From the NCBI RefSeq assembly GCF_014203715.1, contig NZ_JACHJP010000005.1, positions 124,001 through 188,000 of the forward strand: a stretch of DNA of 64,000 nt, written 5' to 3'. The stretch's first letter is position 1, and every line of letters begins with the position of its first letter. This DNA is from Streptosporangium saharense (lineage in GTDB: Bacteria; Actinomycetota; Actinomycetes; Streptosporangiales; Streptosporangiaceae). Shown here piece after piece: positions 30,464-39,202 of this stretch. The position numbers were made by a program, and so were the translations under genes. Under the pieces are notes generated by a model. That model ran no database searches. It was not told the DNA's origin and worked only from the letters and a program-made list of their open reading frames with translations.

Positions 30464-32062
30464 GTGGGCGTGACGGCGCCACCGGAGACGGCCGAGGCGA
30501 AGGGGCGGGCGCGGTGGGCCGGGCTCGCCTTCATCGCGCTGGCCGTGGCGATGATCATCTCCAGCACGACGATCACCAACGTGGCCGTCCCACAGATCAT
30601 CGGCGACCTCGGGCTCAGCTCAACGGACGCGCAGTGGATCCAGGAATCCTACGCGCTGGTCTTCGCCGCGCTGCTGCTCACCTTCGGCAGGCTCGCCGAC
30701 CGGCTGGGCAGGCGCAGGCTGCTGCTGACCGGGGTCACGCTGTTCGCGCTGACGTCCCTGCTGGCCTCCGCCTCCGTCAGCGGGCCGATGCTCGTCGGGT
30801 CCAGGATCCTGCAGGGCGTCGGCGGGGCCATGATCTTCCCCACCACGCTCTCGCTGCTGAACGCGGGCTTCCGCGGCAGGGACAGGGCGACCGCGTTCGC
30901 CGTCTGGGGCGCCACGATCGGCGGGATGGCCGCCCTCGGGCCGCTGGTCGGCGGCTGGCTCACCACTGACCTGTCCTGGCGCTGGGCCTTCGGGATCAAC
31001 ATCCCCGTCGCGGTCGCCGTACTGGCCGGGGTGCTGGTGTTCGTGCCCGAGTCGCGGGAGTCGGACGGTCAGCGGGGCGCGGACCTGGGCGGCGCCGTGC
31101 TCTCGACGCTCGGGTTCGGCCTGCTGGTCTTCGGGCTGGTCGAGGGCCGGGTCTACGGCTGGTGGCGGTCCGTCGAGCCCTTCACCGTCGGCGGCTGGCG
31201 CTGGCCGTTCGCGCTGTCGCCCGTGCCCGTCGCCTTCGCCGCCTCCGCGCTGGCCCTGACCACCTTCGTGCTGGTCGAACGAGGACGGGCCCGCCGGGGC
31301 CGGGTCGCCCTGCTCGACCTGTCGCTGCTGTCCATCACCTCCTTCCGCAACGGCAACATCGCCGCGCTGATCGTCAGCCTCGGTGAGTTCGGCGTGCTGT
31401 TCGCGCTGCCGCTGTGGATGCAGTTCGTCCTGGGCTACTCGCCGCTGCAGACGGGCGTCGCCCTGCTGCCGCTCGCGGTCGGCTCCTTCGCCGCGAGCGC
31501 GTTCGCCTCCCCGCTGTCCCGGGCCAGGGGAGCTGCCTTCGTGGTACGGCTCGGCCTGGCACTGGAGATCGCCGGGATCGCCGGACTCGGCCTGGTGATC
31601 TCCGCGGACACCCCGTGGGCGCTGCCGGTGCCGTTTCTGTTCTGCTACGGCATGGGCATCGGGCTGGCCACCGCCCAGCTCACCGGGGTGGTGCTGGCCG
31701 AGGTCCCGGTCGAGCGCAGCGGTCAGGGGTCGGGCACGCAGAGCACGGTCAGGCAGATCGGCTCCGCGCTGGGCATCGCCGTACTCGGCACGCTGCTCTT
31801 CGGCGGGCTCAGCGCCGACCTCGACCACCGGCTGAGCCAGGCCGACGGCATCGATCCGGTACGGCGGGAGCAGATCGTCACGGCCGTGCAGAGCAGCGCG
31901 GGAGGGGCCATCGCCGGGTTGTCCCGGATGCCCGGGGTCGCCGAGGCGGCCAAGGAGTCCTTCGCGGTCGGCACGCGCTACGCGGCCTTCGGGGCTGCCG
32001 GTTTCCTCGCGGTCGGCCTGCTAGCCAGCCTGTCCCTCGGCGCACGCCGTACCGAGGAATGA
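30464..32062 (+). CDS. MFS transporter, DHA2 family, 14 helices
   Basis: The 532-residue pump has helix-1 motif STTITNVAVPQII, QWIQESYALVFAALLLTFGRLADRLGRRRLLL (motif A), and LGPLVGGWLTTDLSWRWAFGINIP (motif C region), with about 14 hydrophobic segments. It should export a lipophilic compound with proton exchange. GTG 30464 is favoured because GGAGG lies just upstream; the ATG at 30452 is inside that ribosome site. It is divergent from, and probably repressed by, the MarR protein. Codon use is typical of the window. Confidence 0.9.
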   Translation: MGVTAPPETAEAKGRARWAGLAFIALAVAMIISSTTITNVAVPQIIGDLGLSSTDAQWIQESYALVFAALLLTFGRLADRLGRRRLLLTGVTLFALTSLLASASVSGPMLVGSRILQGVGGAMIFPTTLSLLNAGFRGRDRATAFAVWGATIGGMAALGPLVGGWLTTDLSWRWAFGINIPVAVAVLAGVLVFVPESRESDGQRGADLGGAVLSTLGFGLLVFGLVEGRVYGWWRSVEPFTVGGWRWPFALSPVPVAFAASALALTTFVLVERGRARRGRVALLDLSLLSITSFRNGNIAALIVSLGEFGVLFALPLWMQFVLGYSPLQTGVALLPLAVGSFAASAFASPLSRARGAAFVVRLGLALEIAGIAGLGLVISADTPWALPVPFLFCYGMGIGLATAQLTGVVLAEVPVERSGQGSGTQSTVRQIGSALGIAVLGTLLFGGLSADLDHRLSQADGIDPVRREQIVTAVQSSAGGAIAGLSRMPGVAEAAKESFAVGTRYAAFGAAGFLAVGLLASLSLGARRTEE

Positions 32063-32088
32063 TTGGGGTAAACCTGCTGTGTCCAATG

Positions 32089-32117
32089 TAGACATTTGAC
32101 CCTATGGAACGTAGGGT
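32089..32117 (+). promoter_or_regulatory. Predicted promoter (TAGACA-N17-TAGGGT)
   Basis: TAGACA (32089-32094) and TAGGGT (32112-32117) are 17 bases apart, a good housekeeping-sigma match. The -10 is part of a dyad ACCCTA-N7-TAGGGT (32099-32117). Transcription would start near 32124, about 328 bases before the MerR start codon. Confidence 0.45.
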
Positions 32118-32123
32118 TTGTGG

Positions 32124-32451
32124 TGTCACGGAAAGCGAAAGCCGACCGTGACGAGTGACGAAACGCCGTGCGACGCCGGAGGCCACCGGTCGCGCGGGAC
32201 TTCGCGACACGGTCCCGCCCGTGCCAACGGCGCCGCGGAACGTGGGAAAGGGGAGACGAACACCACGCCACAGACCCACGGCTCGGGAGGTGGTCCCTCG
32301 GTTACTCACAGACGGTTCCCGCCCGCCCTGCCTTCCATGAGGGCGTGTGCGGTCAAGAAAAACCGGCAAGATAGCCGGTAGATGGTGTTGAACTCTTCGG
32401 GCCCCGGTGCTTCGCGCGCACCGGGGCCTGACACACGTCACGGAAGGTGCG
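32124..32451 (+). ncRNA. Candidate long structured 5' leader or small RNA before a MerR gene
   Basis: About 330 bases without a credible gene lie between the predicted promoter and the MerR start. The RNA would begin with GTCACGG (32125-32131) pairing with CCGTGAC (32146-32152), enclosing a GC-GAAA-GC tetraloop element. Later come ACCGGC-N6-GCCGGT (32362-32379) and an 11-base GC stem (32400-32428). I cannot match it to a known riboswitch; it could be a regulatory leader, or an independent RNA. Confidence 0.35.
32400..32428 (+). terminator. Strong hairpin just upstream of the MerR gene
   Basis: GGCCCCGGTGC and GCACCGGGGCC make a perfect 11-base stem with a 7-base loop, 23 bases before the MerR ATG. 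There is no U tract. It could be an attenuator of the leader transcript or simply a stabilising stem. Confidence 0.5.
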
Positions 32452-32766
32452 ATGGGAGAAGCGCTGTCCGACAGATTCGACGACGACGACTACCCCGCCT
32501 ACAGCATGGGACGGGCCGCCGAGATCCTCGGCGTCACCCCGGCGTTCCTGCGCAGCCTGGGCGCCGCCAGACTGATCGAACCCCTCCGCTCCGCCGGGGG
32601 CCACCGGAGATACTCCCGCCGCCAGCTCCGTCTGGCCGCCCGCGCCCGCAGGCTGCTCGACCAGGGCACCCCGCTCGACGCGGCCTGCCGCATCATCTCC
32701 CTTGAGGACCAGCTCGAAGAGGCCCTGCGCCTCAACGCCGAACTGCGCCCGAACACCGAGCCGTGA
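32452..32766 (+). CDS. Short MerR-type DNA-binding protein
   Basis: The 104-residue protein has a MerR winged helix (about residues 15-80: AYSMGRAAEILGVTPAFLRSLGAARLIEPLRSAGGHRRYSRRQL) and a short helical tail (SLEDQLEEALRLNAEL) instead of a long effector domain. GGHRRYS is the typical wing. No cysteine pattern for metal binding is present, so it probably recognises DNA without a small ligand or pairs through its tail. ATG 32452 follows GGAAGG. It is convergent with the acireductone dioxygenase gene, eight bases apart. Confidence 0.85.
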   Translation: MGEALSDRFDDDDYPAYSMGRAAEILGVTPAFLRSLGAARLIEPLRSAGGHRRYSRRQLRLAARARRLLDQGTPLDAACRIISLEDQLEEALRLNAELRPNTEP

Positions 32767-32774
32767 CGCCGTGG

Positions 32775-33350
32775 TCAGCGGGTGGCGATCAGCGTGTCGA
32801 AGTCCGCGAAGTCGTCGGCCAGCCGACTGCCGGTGAAGTCACCGACCCAGCCGTCCTCGTCGTGGAAGAACCGGATCGCCACGAAGTCGGGCCGGGTGCC
32901 CATGTCGAACCAGTGCGTCGTGTCGGCGGGCACGCTGAGCAGGTCGCCCGCCTCGCACAGCACCGCGTAGACCCGCTCGTCGAGGTGCAGGTAGAACACC
33001 CCGGCGCCCCTGGCGAAGAAACGGTCCTCGTCGTCGGCGTGGGTGTGCTCGGAGAGGAACTTCTCCCGCGCCAGCGCGGCCTGCTCCACCCACCCGGGGT
33101 CGTCGGAGGGCGTCATGCGCACCGCGTCGACCAGCACGTATCCCTCCTGCCCGATCACCCGGTCCACCTCGTCGCGGTAGGCGTCGAGCACCTGCTCCGG
33201 GGTCGGCTCGGCAGGCAGGTCCCTGACCGGCCCCCACCGCTCGAACCTGATCCCGTACGGCTTGAGCGCGTCGGCGATCTCCTCGGCGTCCTCGGTCCTG
33301 GCGATCACGGTGTCCGGGTCATTGTCGGCCCAGACGGTCAGTAAGGTCAT
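32775..33350 (-). CDS. mtnD: Acireductone dioxygenase (ARD/cupin)
   Basis: The 191-residue cupin matches acireductone dioxygenases, which oxidise the enediol intermediate of the methionine salvage pathway with Fe or Ni. The metal site is EHTHADDED (His, His, Glu spacing), with the second cupin half in DTTHWFDMG giving the last His. ATG 33350 follows GAGGAG. It sits 72 bases downstream of the PpiC-related maturase gene on the same strand, so read-through from the RiPP cassette is possible, but its own promoter could lie in that gap. The other salvage genes are not adjacent; MTA phosphorylase is 22 kb away. Confidence 0.88.
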   Translation of the reverse strand: MTLLTVWADNDPDTVIARTEDAEEIADALKPYGIRFERWGPVRDLPAEPTPEQVLDAYRDEVDRVIGQEGYVLVDAVRMTPSDDPGWVEQAALAREKFLSEHTHADDEDRFFARGAGVFYLHLDERVYAVLCEAGDLLSVPADTTHWFDMGTRPDFVAIRFFHDEDGWVGDFTGSRLADDFADFDTLIATR

Positions 33351-33422
33351 CGGGGTCTCCTCGTCACGGGTTTCCGTCCGTGTTCCGGTGCTTTCCTCCC
33401 CCGCGCTCCGGGCGCTCTCCCC

Positions 33423-34442
33423 TTACCTTTCGGGCTGATTTCCCGGCACGTTACCGGTGCGCTCCGCCGTACCCCAGAACCACTCGACTTTGGCCGCGCG
33501 TCTGCGCCGCTCGATCCACCCGGCGAAGATCTCCCGTTCGACGAGGTCGCGGACGGCGTCGTCGAGCACGGCGGGCTCGACCGCCAGCACCTTGACCGTC
33601 AGCTCTCCCCGGTCCGTGGGGAAGGGGCCCGCGAGCGTCCCCGGCGCGGCGGACATGACCGTCCCGGCCGCCTCCTCGCCGAGCTCCGCGACCAGCTCGC
33701 GCCTGCGCGCGGCGACGAACGTCTCACCCGGTACGGCCTGGCCCCGCGCGAACGCCCTCTCGACGTCGCCGAGGAAGCCGTCGCCGGTGAGGGGTGTGCC
33801 GGGGACGAGGACGACCCTGGCCAGCCGTACGACGTCGAGGTTGTGACCGTGGGCGGCGAACCAGTCCTCGACGTGATCCGCGGCGATCCGCGAGCGCAGC
33901 CGGGCGACCGAGGCCTCGACCGCGACCAGCTCCTCAAGCTCGGCGTGGGAGAGGTGGTTGCGTTCCATCCAGGCCCGGGTCTCGGCGCCGGTCAGCAGCC
34001 CGCGCGCCCTGCGGAAGGCGTCCATCGCCCGCTGCAGCTCCGCGTCGGAGACCGGCTCCGGCTCCTCCTCAAGCGCCTCCCGGACCAGGCAGTCCGTCAC
34101 CAGGCGGTCGGCGACCCCGCGTTCGTCCCAGACGAAGTCCAGGCAGGCGACGGCCCTGGCGACCGGGGTCTCGACGCCGTTGACCCGCAGCAGCAGGTGC
34201 TCGCCCGCCCGGTGCACACCGCGCAGCGGCCAGGGCAGCCCCAGGTCGGGGGACCACGACAGGGAGACGGTCGAGCCGTCCGGCCCCTTGAGGAGCAGGG
34301 CGTGCTGGAGGGAGCCGTCGAACTCCTCCCGCTGGGCGACCAGCCGTACCCGCAGATCGGGGTTGGCGGCCCGGAACGCGTCCAGGTCGGCGCCGTCGGT
34401 GAGCACGCGGAGCGCCTGCGCCAGGGTCCGGCCGTCCGTCAT
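33423..34442 (-). CDS. PpiC-related putative peptide maturation protein
   Basis: The 339-residue protein begins MTDGRTLAQALRVL and has an N-terminal domain of about 110 residues, an all-helical middle (LQRAMDAFRRARGLLTGAET to VARLRSRIAADHVEDWFAAH), and a C-terminal part. The C-terminal part resembles a parvulin rotamase: APGTLAGPFPTDRGELTVKVL, then EREIFAGWIERRRRAAKVEWFWG. This fits the family known as putative peptide maturation system protein, PpiC-related, that accompanies ATP-grasp ligases in RiPP clusters; I name it from memory of the family pattern. Its ATG shares the A of the preceding TGA (TGATG), so it is coupled to the ligase. It may bind or isomerise the precursor; the actual reaction is unknown. 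Confidence 0.7.
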   Translation of the reverse strand: MTDGRTLAQALRVLTDGADLDAFRAANPDLRVRLVAQREEFDGSLQHALLLKGPDGSTVSLSWSPDLGLPWPLRGVHRAGEHLLLRVNGVETPVARAVACLDFVWDERGVADRLVTDCLVREALEEEPEPVSDAELQRAMDAFRRARGLLTGAETRAWMERNHLSHAELEELVAVEASVARLRSRIAADHVEDWFAAHGHNLDVVRLARVVLVPGTPLTGDGFLGDVERAFARGQAVPGETFVAARRRELVAELGEEAAGTVMSAAPGTLAGPFPTDRGELTVKVLAVEPAVLDDAVRDLVEREIFAGWIERRRRAAKVEWFWGTAERTGNVPGNQPER

Positions 34443-35410
34443 CACGTCAGTCCGTTCATGAGCAGGTCGCGGATCGCGGCCGCGACGGGAAGTCCCGTGG
34501 CGGCCTCGATCCACTGGAACTGGCCGTTCGGGTTGATCTCCAGGAAGACGTGGCGGCCGTCAGGGGTGAGGATCAGGTCGATCGCGCCGTAGGTGAGCCC
34601 GAGCCGCTCGACCAGCCGCACGCACCGCGCGGCGACCTCCCCGGGCAGCTCGTGCGGCCTGATGGGGGTGACGCCCGGGTCGTAGTGCCGCCAGTCGTAG
34701 CGCGTGTGGTTGCTCACCTGGGAGTGGATCTCCGCCGCGAAGACCCGCCTTCCGACCACGGTCACCCGGACCTCGACCTCCTTGGGCACGTAGGCCTGGA
34801 CGATGACCGGGCACAGCCGCAGCGCGTCGGCGTGCGCCACGTCCACGGGGGTGACGGGCGCCGCGAACCGGCCGAGCCACTCCCCGTCCGCCTCGAACCG
34901 GTTGCCGTGCACGGGCTTGGTGATCACCCGGCCCTCGTGCCGGTCGTAGAAGTCGAGGAAGGCGTCGGGATCGGTGGTGACCAGCGTCTCCGGCAGCGCG
35001 AAGCCGAGCAGCCGAGCCTGTTCGAGCTGGTACGGCTTGCGCCCGGCCCGGTCGAGGACCGACCTCGGGGCGGGAACCGTCAGGCAGCCGAGGCCGTCCC
35101 ACAGCCCCTCGGTCACGGCCAGGCACTCCTGCTCCACGTAGGCCCTCACCTGTTCCGGGTGGGCCGGGCTCGCGGCAGGGGGCAGCGGCCTGCGGTACCA
35201 GAGCGAGGTCAGCTCGTCCAGCACGACCCCGCGCTCCCCGGTGTCGAGCACCCTGCGGGTCGAGCCGTCACGTGAAAGGCCGATCTCCACGCTCGCGCGG
35301 GCCGGGTAGGAGGCGGGGTCGAAGACGACGACGTCCGCGCCCGCGGACGTGAGGAGGCCGACCACCTGGTCCGCGTGGTCGTCCCCGGCTGAGGTCAGAA
35401 CGAGGATCAT
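34442..35410 (-). CDS. ATP-grasp peptide ligase (RiPP maturase, MvdD/SAV_5884-like)
   Basis: The 322-residue protein has the preATP-grasp domain MILVLTSAGDDHADQVVGLL with VVVFDPASYPA and the family mark SLWYRRP. ATP-grasp follows: RVITKPVHGNR (ATP-binding Lys), VIVQAYVPKEVEVRVTVVG, and the metal-binding end HVFLEINPNGQFQW. It joins a carboxylate to an amine or hydroxyl through an acyl phosphate. Its length and the WYRRP/EINPNGQ marks fit the ribosomal-peptide maturases rather than RimK or glutathione synthetase. ATG 35410 follows GGGGA; a GTG at 35425 is an alternative. It lies 51 bases downstream of the candidate precursor gene. Confidence 0.85.
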   Translation of the reverse strand: MILVLTSAGDDHADQVVGLLTSAGADVVVFDPASYPARASVEIGLSRDGSTRRVLDTGERGVVLDELTSLWYRRPLPPAASPAHPEQVRAYVEQECLAVTEGLWDGLGCLTVPAPRSVLDRAGRKPYQLEQARLLGFALPETLVTTDPDAFLDFYDRHEGRVITKPVHGNRFEADGEWLGRFAAPVTPVDVAHADALRLCPVIVQAYVPKEVEVRVTVVGRRVFAAEIHSQVSNHTRYDWRHYDPGVTPIRPHELPGEVAARCVRLVERLGLTYGAIDLILTPDGRHVFLEINPNGQFQWIEAATGLPVAAAIRDLLMNGLT

Positions 35411-35461
35411 CTGGAGTCCCCGCACGGGGACGCGGTCCCACGCGTCCCCGTGGCGGATCGA

Positions 35462-35608
35462 TCAGCTGTCGCCGGAGGTGTGGCTGTGGTTGCCGTGGAT
35501 CACGATCACCTGGCTCTTCGCGCCGCCGCTGACCTGGAGGAGCTGGTTCTCGTCGAGCTCGGGGCCGAGGGCCGCGATGTCGTCGAGCGTGGTGCGCGAC
35601 TTGCTCAC
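35462..35608 (-). CDS. Candidate RiPP precursor peptide with double-glycine leader
   Basis: A 48-residue reading frame starts at GTG 35608, with AGGGA just upstream, and stops 51 bases before the ATP-grasp ligase. The front has MSKSRTTLDDIAAL, followed by GPELDENQLLQVSGG, an amphipathic acidic stretch ending in GG at residues 28-29, like leaders of peptide natural products. The remaining 19 residues are AKSQVIVIHGNHSHTSGDS: one Lys, four Ser, one Thr, three His and only one acidic residue (Asp47). It is the first gene of a three-gene unit with the ligase and the PpiC-related protein. No homologue search was possible; the position, start site and leader are the evidence. Confidence 0.72.
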   Translation of the reverse strand: MSKSRTTLDDIAALGPELDENQLLQVSGGAKSQVIVIHGNHSHTSGDS

Positions 35609-35870
35609 GTCGTCCCTGCCTTCCTGTTGTTCCCGTGGACCGCCCGATGCGGTCCGACGCCGTGAAGGCTAGGCGGGGGAGGTGGGGAGGGTCGTCCGTC
35701 ACGCGGATGATCGGCCGTCCCCCGTCCAGGGGACTTCTTGATGATCGTCTGGTCGGCGGAAGCGGCATAATGCCCGGGTTATGTAGTAACCGGCGACCGA
35801 TGCCCGGCCCGTGACGCTGTGCCAACGGGGGCGACACAGCCGTCATCGGTCCTCTCTGATCGGAGAACCC
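35609..35870. promoter_or_regulatory. Divergent promoter region between the RiPP cassette and a DUF1444-like gene
   Basis: The 262-base spacer has no credible gene. Its right part is locally AT-richer (CATAATGCC and TTATGTAGTAAC, about 35767-35790), where promoters may lie. I found no consensus pair I would defend and no regulator gene beside it. Confidence 0.35.
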
Positions 35871-36791
35871 ATGTCCCACGATGCCATCGGCGAAGGCCTG
35901 CTCAGGGCCCTGGCCGAGGAGGGCGTCACGGGCAGGCTCACCGGCCCGGCGACCGTCGCCGTCAGCCGTCCGGACGGCGACCTCACCGTGGACATCGGCG
36001 AGTGGCGCGTCCACGCCGCCGAGATCCCCCCGGCCGACCTGCCGGGATTCGCCGCGCACTTCGCCCGGGGGTTCGCGCGGTCGGTCCGCGCCGAGGCGCG
36101 GCCGTCGCCCGACATCGAACGGCTGCTGGCCGAGGGGTCCCTGCGGATGCGCGTCTACACCGAGGAGGCGCTGGCCGAGCCGCCCGGCCTGCGGGACGCC
36201 CTGCTGACCCGCCCGCTCGCCCCGGGACTCGTCGAGACGGTGGTCGTCGACACCCCCGACTCGATCGTGCCGCTCAACCGCGTCCACCTCGGAGACAGGC
36301 CGCAGGAGCAGGTCTTCGGCGCCGCGCTGCACGCCTCCCTGACCAGGGAGCCGCACTACGCCAAGACCGACGCGGTCTGGGGCGTCCCGATCACGCACGT
36401 CGGGGAGACCCACCGCTACATCGGCTCTCACGTCCACGTGCTCAGGCGCCACGTCGGATCCGCCCCGTACGGCGCGCTTGTCGCCTTCCCCGTCCCGGAG
36501 TACCTGATCGTCCACGAGATCGGCGACACCCACATCGTCGCGGCCCTCGAAGCCATGCAGGAACTCGCCGCGACCCACGTCGAGAAGGGGGACAACGCCC
36601 TCACCGCGCAGGTCTACTGGTGGTGCCCGGGGCCGTACGAGCAACTGCCCGAGCCGGACGCGCTCGCCAGCGGGCGGGTCCCCGACCTGCGGCCCGTGAG
36701 AGTAGAGGTGGACCACCGGGAGCGGAGCGTCACCCCGCGCACCCCCGACACCGAACGCCTCATCGAACTCTGGCTGGGCGACCGCCCCTGA
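35871..36791 (+). CDS. DUF1444-like protein of unknown function
   Basis: The 306-residue soluble protein starts MSHDAIGEGLLRALAEEG and carries VSRPDGDLTVDIGEWRVHA, RMRVYTEEAL, TVVVDTPDSIVPLNRVHLGD, a GSHVHVLRRHVGSAPYGALV strand pair, AFPVPEYLIVHEIGD, and VYWWCPGP near the end. The order of these strands recalls DUF1444 (YtpQ) proteins, but the similarity is faint and is my own reading. ATG 35871 follows GGAG. It is divergent from the RiPP precursor gene. A role in immunity or regulation of the peptide is only a guess from position; it could equally be a separate housekeeping gene. Confidence 0.55.
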   Translation: MSHDAIGEGLLRALAEEGVTGRLTGPATVAVSRPDGDLTVDIGEWRVHAAEIPPADLPGFAAHFARGFARSVRAEARPSPDIERLLAEGSLRMRVYTEEALAEPPGLRDALLTRPLAPGLVETVVVDTPDSIVPLNRVHLGDRPQEQVFGAALHASLTREPHYAKTDAVWGVPITHVGETHRYIGSHVHVLRRHVGSAPYGALVAFPVPEYLIVHEIGDTHIVAALEAMQELAATHVEKGDNALTAQVYWWCPGPYEQLPEPDALASGRVPDLRPVRVEVDHRERSVTPRTPDTERLIELWLGDRP

Positions 36792-36890
36792 GCCCGCGTC
36801 CCGTGACGCCGGTCTTTTCTCACGCCGGTCGGGCCGCTCACCCTTTCCGCCTCGTACGGCTGCCCGCCCCACGGTCGGGTCGTGGGTGAT

Positions 36891-36912
36891 TTATCAGCTT
36901 TTTTCGTGATAA
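36891..36912 (+). promoter_or_regulatory. Inverted repeat directly before the polysaccharide lyase gene
   Basis: TTATCA (36891-36896) and TGATAA (36907-36912) flank GCTTTTTTCG. It is AT-rich in a GC-rich context and ends seven bases before the GTG at 36920. It could be an operator, or a terminator stem of the upstream gene because of its T run. Confidence 0.4.
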
Positions 36913-36919
36913 TCAGGGG

Positions 36920-39202
36920 GTGTCTTGGGGGTCTCGGCGGGCGTTCCTGCGGCTTGGCGGGGTCGCCGTGGCCGGGACGCTCGTCCTGGGGGCCGACGGC
37001 AGGCTCGTACGTCTCAGGGAACACCCCGGGGACGAGGCCTTCGCCGGGCTTCGCCGTACCTGGCGGGACGTGACGGCGGGGGCGGGGTTCGACCCGGAGG
37101 CGGAGCCGTACCGGACGAGACTGGTGCGGCTGGGAAGGAAGGCGGCCAGGCACCGGGACGCCATGGCGCCGACCGATGGCTCCCTCTGGCCCGACCAGGC
37201 GTTCCCGTCGTTCGTCACGACCCCGGCGCGGCTGCGGAGCATGGCCCGCGCCTACGCGCTGCCGGGGACCGGGGTGACCGGGGACGCGGGCCTGGCCGAG
37301 GCCGTCGCCGTGGGCGTCGACCACTACCGGCGCCGGGTGTACGCCCAGGGTGCCGCGCAGACCGGCAACTGGTGGCACTGGCAGATCGGCGTCCCCAGGG
37401 CGCTCCTCGACGCGGCCGTGCTGGTCGGCCCGCACCTGACGGAGGCGCGGAGCAGGGCGCTGCGCGACGCGGTCGACCACTTCGTCCCGGAACGCCGCCT
37501 GACCGACTACGGCGGGACCAGCACCGGGGCCAACCGGGTGGACCTGTGCACGGTGATGCTGCTGCGCGCCATGCTCAGGTCGGACCCTGACCGGGCGGCG
37601 CTTGCCGTCTCGGCGCTGTCCCCGGTCCTGCGCCACGTCACCGAGGGCGACGGCTTCCACCGGGACGGCTCGTTCGTCCAGCACACCTTCGTCCCCTATC
37701 AGGGGACCTACGGCGCCTCGCTGCTGAACGGCGTCGCCACGCTGCTGGCCGTACTGCGTGGCTCGCCCTGGGAGATCACCGACCCGAACATCCGGATAAT
37801 TCACGAAATGGTGGACAGGTCGTTCGCGCCGGTCGTGCACGACGGCCTCTGCATGGATCTCGTCAGCGGCCGGGCCGTCGGCAGGAGGCCGTACGGCGAC
37901 CACGACAGGGGCCGCGCGATCGCCGCCGCGATCCTGCTGCTCGGGGAGAGCGCCCCGGCCGCCGACCGGGACCGCTGGCGGGGCATGGTCAAGGGCTGGG
38001 CGCTGCGGGACACCGCCAGGCCCATGCTCGCCGAGGCCGAACGCGACGACCTGGCCTTCCACGCCCGCCTCGCGACCCTCATGGACGACGAGACCGTGCC
38101 CGCCCTCGACGAACCCGCCGGGCACCGCCTGCTGGCGGCGAGCGCCCGCGCCGTCCATCGTGGACCGGGCTGGTGCGCGGGGCTCAGCATGGCCTCCTGG
38201 CGGATCGGCCACTACGAACACGGCAACGGTGAGAACCTCCGTGGCTGGCACACCGGCTCGGGGATGCTCACCTGGTGGGCCGAGGGCCACGGCGCCCAGT
38301 ACTCCGACTCCTTCTGGCAGACCGTGGACCCCTACCGGCTACCCGGCACGACCGTCTCGACCCGGCGCCTGGCCGACGGCGAGGGGGAGGGCTGGGGCGA
38401 CACCTGCCCCCCTGGCCGCTGGGTCGGCGGCGCGAGCGACGGTGTTTACGCGACCATTGGCCAGCACCTGTACGGCTTCGCGAGCACGCTTGAAGCCTTC
38501 AAGACGTGGCTCTTCCTCGACGACGCGGTGGTCTGCCTGGGCGCCGGGATCACCTGCGCCGACGGCGTCCCGGTGGAGACCGTCGTGGACAACCGCAGGA
38601 CCTCCGGCGCCCTCACCGTGGACCCCGAAGCGGGCTGGGCGCACATCGCGGGCCACGGCGGCTACGTCCTGCCGTGCTCCCGGCCGCGCACCCTCCGCGA
38701 GGAGCGCTCCGACGCCTCGGGTTCGGTACGGCGAAGCTACGCGACCCTCTGGCTCGACCACGGCGTCGATCCCCGTGGTGAGAGCTACGTCTATCTGCTC
38801 ATGCCGGGCGCGAGCCCTTCGGCGACCAGGGCCAGGGCCGCCGACCCCGGCTGGGCGCGGGTGCTCGCCAACACCGCTCTCCAGCAGGGCGTCCACGTCC
38901 CCTCACTCGGCCTGACCGCCGTCAACTTCTGGACGCCGGGCACCGTCGGGCCCCTGACCGCCTCGGCCCCGTGCGCGGTCCTCGTCAGGGAGCCCGGCGA
39001 CGGTACGGCCACGCTCACGGTCTCCGACCCGCGCTGCGACCTGGACGCGCTGACCGTCACCTGGGACCGCCCCGTGGCCGAGGTGCTCCGCACTCCCCGC
39101 CTTCTGAAGGCCGCCACCCCCGGTCCACGCCTCACCCTGTCCTTCGGCCGCCTCGCCGGCGAGGAGGGCGCCTCGCAGACGGTCACCGTACGGCTCACGT
39201 GA
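36920..39202 (+). CDS. Polysaccharide lyase family 8 (hyaluronate/chondroitin/xanthan lyase type), Tat-exported
   Basis: The 760-residue protein opens with a Tat signal (SRRAFLRLGGVAVAG). The alpha/alpha-barrel carries NWWHWQIG (Asn150 region) and the catalytic set Asn205, His255, Tyr264, Arg318 and Arg322. These spacings (50, 9, 54 and 4) equal those of streptococcal hyaluronate lyase Asn349, His399, Tyr408, Arg462 and Arg466. The C-terminal half (from about 400) is beta-sandwich-like. The enzyme should cleave a uronic-acid polymer by beta-elimination outside the cell; which polymer is not decided. GTG 36920 abuts AGGGG with too short a spacing, so the exact start is slightly uncertain. The end overlaps the SoxR gene by 8 bases. 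Confidence 0.92.
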   Translation: MSWGSRRAFLRLGGVAVAGTLVLGADGRLVRLREHPGDEAFAGLRRTWRDVTAGAGFDPEAEPYRTRLVRLGRKAARHRDAMAPTDGSLWPDQAFPSFVTTPARLRSMARAYALPGTGVTGDAGLAEAVAVGVDHYRRRVYAQGAAQTGNWWHWQIGVPRALLDAAVLVGPHLTEARSRALRDAVDHFVPERRLTDYGGTSTGANRVDLCTVMLLRAMLRSDPDRAALAVSALSPVLRHVTEGDGFHRDGSFVQHTFVPYQGTYGASLLNGVATLLAVLRGSPWEITDPNIRIIHEMVDRSFAPVVHDGLCMDLVSGRAVGRRPYGDHDRGRAIAAAILLLGESAPAADRDRWRGMVKGWALRDTARPMLAEAERDDLAFHARLATLMDDETVPALDEPAGHRLLAASARAVHRGPGWCAGLSMASWRIGHYEHGNGENLRGWHTGSGMLTWWAEGHGAQYSDSFWQTVDPYRLPGTTVSTRRLADGEGEGWGDTCPPGRWVGGASDGVYATIGQHLYGFASTLEAFKTWLFLDDAVVCLGAGITCADGVPVETVVDNRRTSGALTVDPEAGWAHIAGHGGYVLPCSRPRTLREERSDASGSVRRSYATLWLDHGVDPRGESYVYLLMPGASPSATRARAADPGWARVLANTALQQGVHVPSLGLTAVNFWTPGTVGPLTASAPCAVLVREPGDGTATLTVSDPRCDLDALTVTWDRPVAEVLRTPRLLKAATPGPRLTLSFGRLAGEEGASQTVTVRLT

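Follow-up and report, generated by a model that had tools for sequence, protein, structure and literature searches.

Graspetides that depend on a partner protein have one described precedent close to the locus analyzed here. The group 21 graspetide cluster of Micromonospora rosaria encodes a precursor (MirA), a ligase of family TIGR04187 (MirB), a TIGR04500 protein (MirC) and a transporter (MirD) (PMC13097080, March 2026). MirB or MirC alone is inactive; together they form three macrolactones, Ser8–Asp22, Ser9–Asp26 and Thr11–Asp24, to give rosaritide, whose rings span 13–17 residues and are all esters (PMC13097080). The two proteins copurify as an active complex, and MirC was proposed to serve as a chaperone or delivery partner, with a C-domain said not to resemble the PPIase domain of Cj1289 (PMC13097080). 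A 2022 survey had already placed the TIGR04500 family beside actinobacterial ATP-grasp loci (PMC8939145).

Here we describe a cassette in a 64,000-nucleotide stretch of the Streptosporangium saharense genome (hereafter, the window). It has in common with the rosaritide cluster a TIGR04187 ligase, a TIGR04500 partner, the gene order and a GG-type precursor with a related leader. We conclude that it is very probably a rosaritide-type (partner-dependent) graspetide cassette, and that its core is a new conserved subtype within graspetides.

Results

Gene content and surroundings of the cassette

Re-reading of the sequence placed a peptide with a GG leader (A), a ligase (B) and a PpiC-related protein (C) as the initial annotation had described them (Table 1). 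The peptide stop codon lies 51 bases from ATG 35410, the most likely start of B; B may instead begin at a GTG five codons earlier. Base 34442 is common to the stop codon of B (34444–34442) and the start of C (TGATG). Both sequence marks attributed to the ligase, SLWYRRP and EINPNGQF, were found in B.

Table 1. Features of the cassette, in window coordinates
Feature	Position	Strand	Details
Conserved promoter block	35693..35712	minus	GATCATCCGCGTGACGGACG; position -104 from peptide start
-10-like box	35666..35672	minus	CTAGCCT; 16/16 loci, fixed spacing to upstream block
5'-UTR hairpin	35637..35655	minus	GGACCGC-ATCGG-GCGGTCC; between promoter and ribosome-binding site; 16/16 relatives
Precursor gene A	35462..35608	minus	48 codons, GTG start, GG at residues 28-29
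Leader of A	35522-35608	minus	Residues 1-29, ends QVSGG; MSKSRTTLDDIAALGPELDENQLLQVSGG
Core of A	35465-35521	minus	AKSQVIVIHGNHSHTSGDS
Ser32 codon	35513..35515	minus	AGC in 16/16; candidate ester donor (putative role)
Asp47 codon	35468..35470	minus	GAC in 16/16; candidate ester acceptor (putative role)
ATP-grasp graspetide synthetase B (MirB/MvdD-like)	34442..35410	minus	TIGR04187/TIGR04184, Pfam MvdD pre-ATP-grasp domain
TIGR04500 partner protein C (MirC-like)	33423..34442	minus	ATG 34442, stop ends 33423
Domains of C			N-domain ~1-80; SurA-like chaperone core ~80-200 and 290-324; parvulin-fold domain ~203-289, without catalytic His

Directly 3' of the cassette is a gene for a cupin of the acireductone dioxygenase (ARD) family (32775–33350, minus strand), which is absent near the other 15 cassettes of this precursor type (class A; see below). 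On the other side, a divergent reading frame of 326 aa (35811–36791, plus strand), with no Pfam or NCBIfam match, adjoins the cassette. We rejected these two genes and the one at 36920–39202 as members, as none of them occurs near the other 15 cassettes. Beyond A, B, C and a peptidase-containing ABC transporter (PCAT), no neighbour was common to all 16 class-A loci. Nor was any known RNA family found by Rfam in window positions 31000–39000.

A PCAT gene is absent from the window cassette, unlike the rosaritide cluster, where one is adjacent. Among the class-A loci, PCAT follows A-B-C in 10 of 16 and is absent from six, the window included. Thus, the view of the locus as a three-gene cassette held for A, B and C, which occur together, but missed a fourth gene that most close relatives carry. 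The six cassettes without PCAT, which include two deep clades, retain A, B and C. An adjacent PCAT is a typical companion and has not been reported as required for ring formation. The genome of the strain contains exactly three TIGR04500 graspetide cassettes, and its only two full-length PCAT matches sit in the other two. The window peptide may therefore be processed in trans. Each of these sister cassettes (L084 and L085; G000:C10:213711-217979 and G000:C16:2632-7382) has its own PCAT, and their cores, RWHVTWYIKGKPAEWSV and those of two peptides with RP...CTS cores, are unrelated to that of the window.

The ligase and its partner protein

B matched TIGR04187 (E = 2.4e-76, 257 bits, below the cut-off of 350), TIGR04184 MvdD (3e-63) and the Pfam MvdD pre-ATP-grasp domain. 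The DFR motif is replaced by DWR (Asp-Trp-Arg) in B, and EINPNGQ is kept; Asp244 and Arg246 are invariant in an alignment of 17 relatives. A profile of B matched the solved structures of AMdnB (7m4s), ATP-grasp ligases 5ig8 and 5ig9, and CdnC (7mgv). The cassette thus has an ATP-grasp ligase of the graspetide-synthetase clade beside a precursor gene. The microviridin synthetases MvdC/MvdD and MdnB/MdnC are homologous to B in the ATP-grasp fold and the pre-ATP-grasp domain, yet they act without a TIGR04500 partner. A microviridin cassette was rejected, given the presence of this partner and the absence, by inspection, of the microviridin core motif from the window peptide.

C matched TIGR04500 ('PpiC_rel_mature') at E = 3.3e-104 and 348.8 bits, well above the cut-off of 180. 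Its predicted structure (mean pLDDT 85.4) matched SurA (2pv3) and Cj1289 (3rgc) in Foldseek/VIA searches. Residues 203–289 aligned with the SurA P1 domain (2pv1) at a middling Z of 8.1 (2.3 Å over 79 residues), and a profile of C matched SurA with E = 1.7e-8. Together, the modeled fold and this sequence match point to a parvulin assignment. Yet both positions that hold the catalytic histidines of SurA P1 (in the HIL and GFHI motifs) are occupied by other residues in a profile of 27 relatives. Because the parvulin domain lacks both catalytic histidines, C probably acts as a partner in folding or docking. A role as an active prolyl isomerase was rejected on the same grounds, and the window core contains no proline. 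C is thus like the chaperone-isomerases SurA, Cj1289 and PrsA in sequence and fold, as seen from the match to SurA; unlike them, it is predicted to be cytoplasmic, has an extra N-domain and has lost both histidines. The degenerate parvulin fold recovered here differs from the published description of MirC (PMC13097080) but still agrees with a non-enzymatic role.

Other forms of the TIGR04500 protein were also seen. Several matches span only about profile positions 84–339 and lack the N-domain (G133:C22, G134:C42, G132:C10, G047:C73, G129:C24, G130:C8 and others). At one locus (L070, 7209–8708, minus strand), the frame of the protein is 500 aa long, ∼420 bases being inserted ahead of the C-terminal EWFWG region.

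Co-conservation of precursor, ligase and partner

Within the same family, 77 of 342 genomes contain TIGR04500 matches above the cut-off, as many as six in a genome. In a sample of 396 genomes drawn from the phylum, one further genome does. We examined 40 loci, 16 picked via the peptide and 24 via TIGR04500. All 40, the window included, encode a ligase together with a TIGR04500 protein, and a short GG-leader peptide lies upstream of the pair. Automatic search gave 37 of these precursors, and a second look gave the other three (L085, L139 and L155). This bears out the initial annotation, which had taken the locus for a ribosomal peptide pathway and proposed looking for just such co-conservation. 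Its failure to place the modifying proteins in a characterised class no longer stands: the class exists, in the NCBIfam models TIGR04187, TIGR04500 and TIGR04497 and in the rosaritide experiments (PMC13097080).

The leaders share the pattern ..I..G.ELDE..L..VSGG across core classes in the 40 loci, and at least six mutually unrelated types of core can be distinguished. Examples are R(M/W).VSWY..GKPAEW, ..DPPG.C..D and RKFEWSSQVMTPDG(T/S)(V/I)DAKDLDF. A shared leader with differing cores is the usual RiPP pattern. One core (L155) is rosaritide-like, LPRNGAGSSKTIDDIPGGGRPDTDTDFD (GSSKTIDDIPGGGRPDTDTDFD), and its Ser8, Ser9, Thr11, Asp22, Asp24 and Asp26 stand at the positions numbered so in rosaritide; B and C of this locus are 47% and ∼40% identical to those of the window. 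At L143 (G271:C1) and L146 (G267:C22), a single ligase/TIGR04500 pair is preceded by an array of precursors, three or four in number, which differ from one another and all have GG leaders. These arrays hold cores with a PPG.C motif, and ..DPPG.C..D occurs in arrays of up to four at L143.

Of the 343 family genomes, 16 encode a full peptide of the window type (class A); the named relatives are Nonomuraea and Sphaerisporangium species. Elsewhere in the 396-genome phylum sample, the sole match (G559, E = 2.7e-4) extends over part of the model; it falls within an open frame of 722 aa and probably arose by chance. The order A-B-C is kept at all 16 class-A loci. This conservation across 16 genomes, together with a leader dN/dS of ∼0.14, argues that the cassette is not a chance arrangement.

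The class-A core

The window peptide matched TIGR04497, 'putative ATP-grasp target RiPP' (GRASP_targ_2), weakly and only through its leader (E = 2.8e-5, 24.1 bits; curated cut-off, 32 bits). Leader and core are both conserved within class A rather than varying freely; the core dN/dS is 0.49, a value that rests on very low dS over 19 codons. The core consensus of the 16 loci is (A/V)(K/R)SQVI(V/E/T)I(H/C)(G/N)(G/N)H(S/T)HTSGDS(N), and the window peptide alone lacks the final Asn. HTSGDS had no match in the literature text searched; supplementary tables, outside the scope of that search, may list it.

Ser32 and Asp47 are invariant (16/16) and make a candidate donor and acceptor; no acidic residue other than Asp47 is invariant. 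The window core has one acid. His41 and His43 are also invariant, and position 38 is His in 14 loci and Cys in two. Every locus has Ser or Thr at position 42, even though the codon may be AGC, TCG, ACG or ACC, and positions 39–40 vary as GN, GG or NG. The rosaritide set of acceptors (Asp22/24/26) and donors (Ser8/Ser9/Thr11) is not present in the window core. In rosaritide, three Asp acceptors are joined to three donors by interlocking esters, whereas the window type is His-rich with one invariant acceptor. The three-ester pattern of rosaritide is thus impossible for the class-A core, and the product would differ accordingly. Because Asp47 is the sole invariant acid, no more than one ring can be common to all class-A members.

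These patterns suggest that the class-A core probably carries one ring, most likely joining Ser32 to Asp47. The GN, GG and NG pairs resemble those of tight beta turns, so we place a turn at 39–40. If this is a two-residue turn, residue i would face residue 79-i, which would set Ser32 opposite Asp47 in a ring spanning 15 residues, similar to the spans seen in rosaritide. In this putative hairpin register, His/Cys38, His41 and His43 would share one face. The AlphaFold2 model of the precursor gave no confident structure for the core (mean pLDDT 58.5).

Promoter block and 5'-UTR hairpin

A block GATC[AG]..GGA[CT]G is present at all 16 class-A loci and starts exactly 40 nt upstream of the TA-containing -10-like box. 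The hairpin that follows has 89.6% of stem cells paired. Compensatory changes were found in 18 cells, compared with 5.7 ± 2.4 in shuffles (0/500 as high), although kinship inflates such comparisons. Covariation was 0.418 versus 0.205, and slid controls were all lower. The hairpin may be either an RNA element or a palindromic DNA operator; an intrinsic terminator was rejected, as no T-run follows it. Inverted repeats were also noticed, by eye, upstream of precursors of other core types.

Discussion

The rosaritide-type reading draws on the gene families and on rosaritide itself, an experimentally studied case in which these families occur in this order (PMC13097080). It is further supported by the presence of precursor, B and C at 40/40 loci, the rosaritide-like core of L155, the leader common across classes, the match of the ligase to solved graspetide synthetases, the likeness of C to SurA, and the retention of Ser/Thr at position 42 across differing codons. 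Against it stand the sub-threshold scores of the peptide (TIGR04497) and the ligase (TIGR04187), the absence of a transporter gene from the cassette, and a single invariant acid where rosaritide has three acceptors. By analogy with MirA/B/C, a relative on which ring formation was demonstrated, the window core would be modified as follows. The dedicated, conserved promoter would drive an mRNA encoding A, B and C, and a B–C complex would recognize the leader of A. B would use ATP to phosphorylate, and thereby activate, a core carboxylate, which would then be attacked by the side chain of a Ser/Thr (or Lys) residue, forming a macrolactone or macrolactam (-18 Da). C would be required as a chaperone or as a docking or activating partner, and would not isomerize prolines. 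Finally, the leader would be cut after GG. As the window cassette has no C39-peptidase transporter of its own, the cut would presumably be made by that of one of the two sister cassettes.

Where a ring would close is less certain than the type of the cassette. B and C could form another bond on this core, for example a Lys31 lactam, a link between molecules, or more than one ring by way of Glu36 or the C-terminal carboxylate. Each core offers six Ser/Thr/Lys donors, Lys31 is present in 15 of 16 loci (Arg in one) and Glu36 in four, so we hold this to be a substantial possibility, if short of an even chance. What favors Ser32–Asp47 instead is that these are the invariant donor and sole invariant acid, that a turn at 39–40 would bring them face to face, and that the rosaritide rings, with comparable spans, are all esters. 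A question of function is raised by the histidines. In a ring-closed beta hairpin, His/Cys38, His41 and His43 (with Glu36 in some) could form a metal site on one face, the ring pre-organizing the ligands. The invariance of His41 and His43 and the ligand-preserving swap of His for Cys at position 38 speak for this. We nevertheless consider both the site and the pre-organization unlikely, as the 16 loci share no metal-related genes and AlphaFold2 does not model the hairpin confidently.

The missing PCAT also invites a less constructive view, namely that the cassette is decaying and that, with its transporter lost, the strain has no more use for the peptide. The long window branch in the B+C tree, the missing terminal Asn and the GTG start codon would fit. 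However, all three frames are intact with their catalytic residues, the promoter and hairpin are kept, the other PCAT-less cassettes have retained A, B and C even in deep clades, and the leader is under constraint (dN/dS 0.14); decay is therefore very improbable. Returning to the rosaritide-type reading, its most elaborate form would be a new topology: a single Ser32–Asp47 ester stapling the open end of a two-strand hairpin, a conserved His/Cys-x-x-His-x-His metal site at the other end, a ligase dependent on a catalytically dead SurA/parvulin partner, and export by a transporter encoded elsewhere. That all of these hold together is a long shot, slightly longer than the metal site.

The demonstration of partner-dependent graspetides dates only from 2026, and for those that need a TIGR04500 protein it covers a single example with three rings. 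A core with one invariant acceptor, available in 16 genomes, would offer a simple readout for dissecting the role of the PpiC-related partner. More broadly, across the loci examined, a single platform of leader, ligase and partner carries these six or more unrelated core types.
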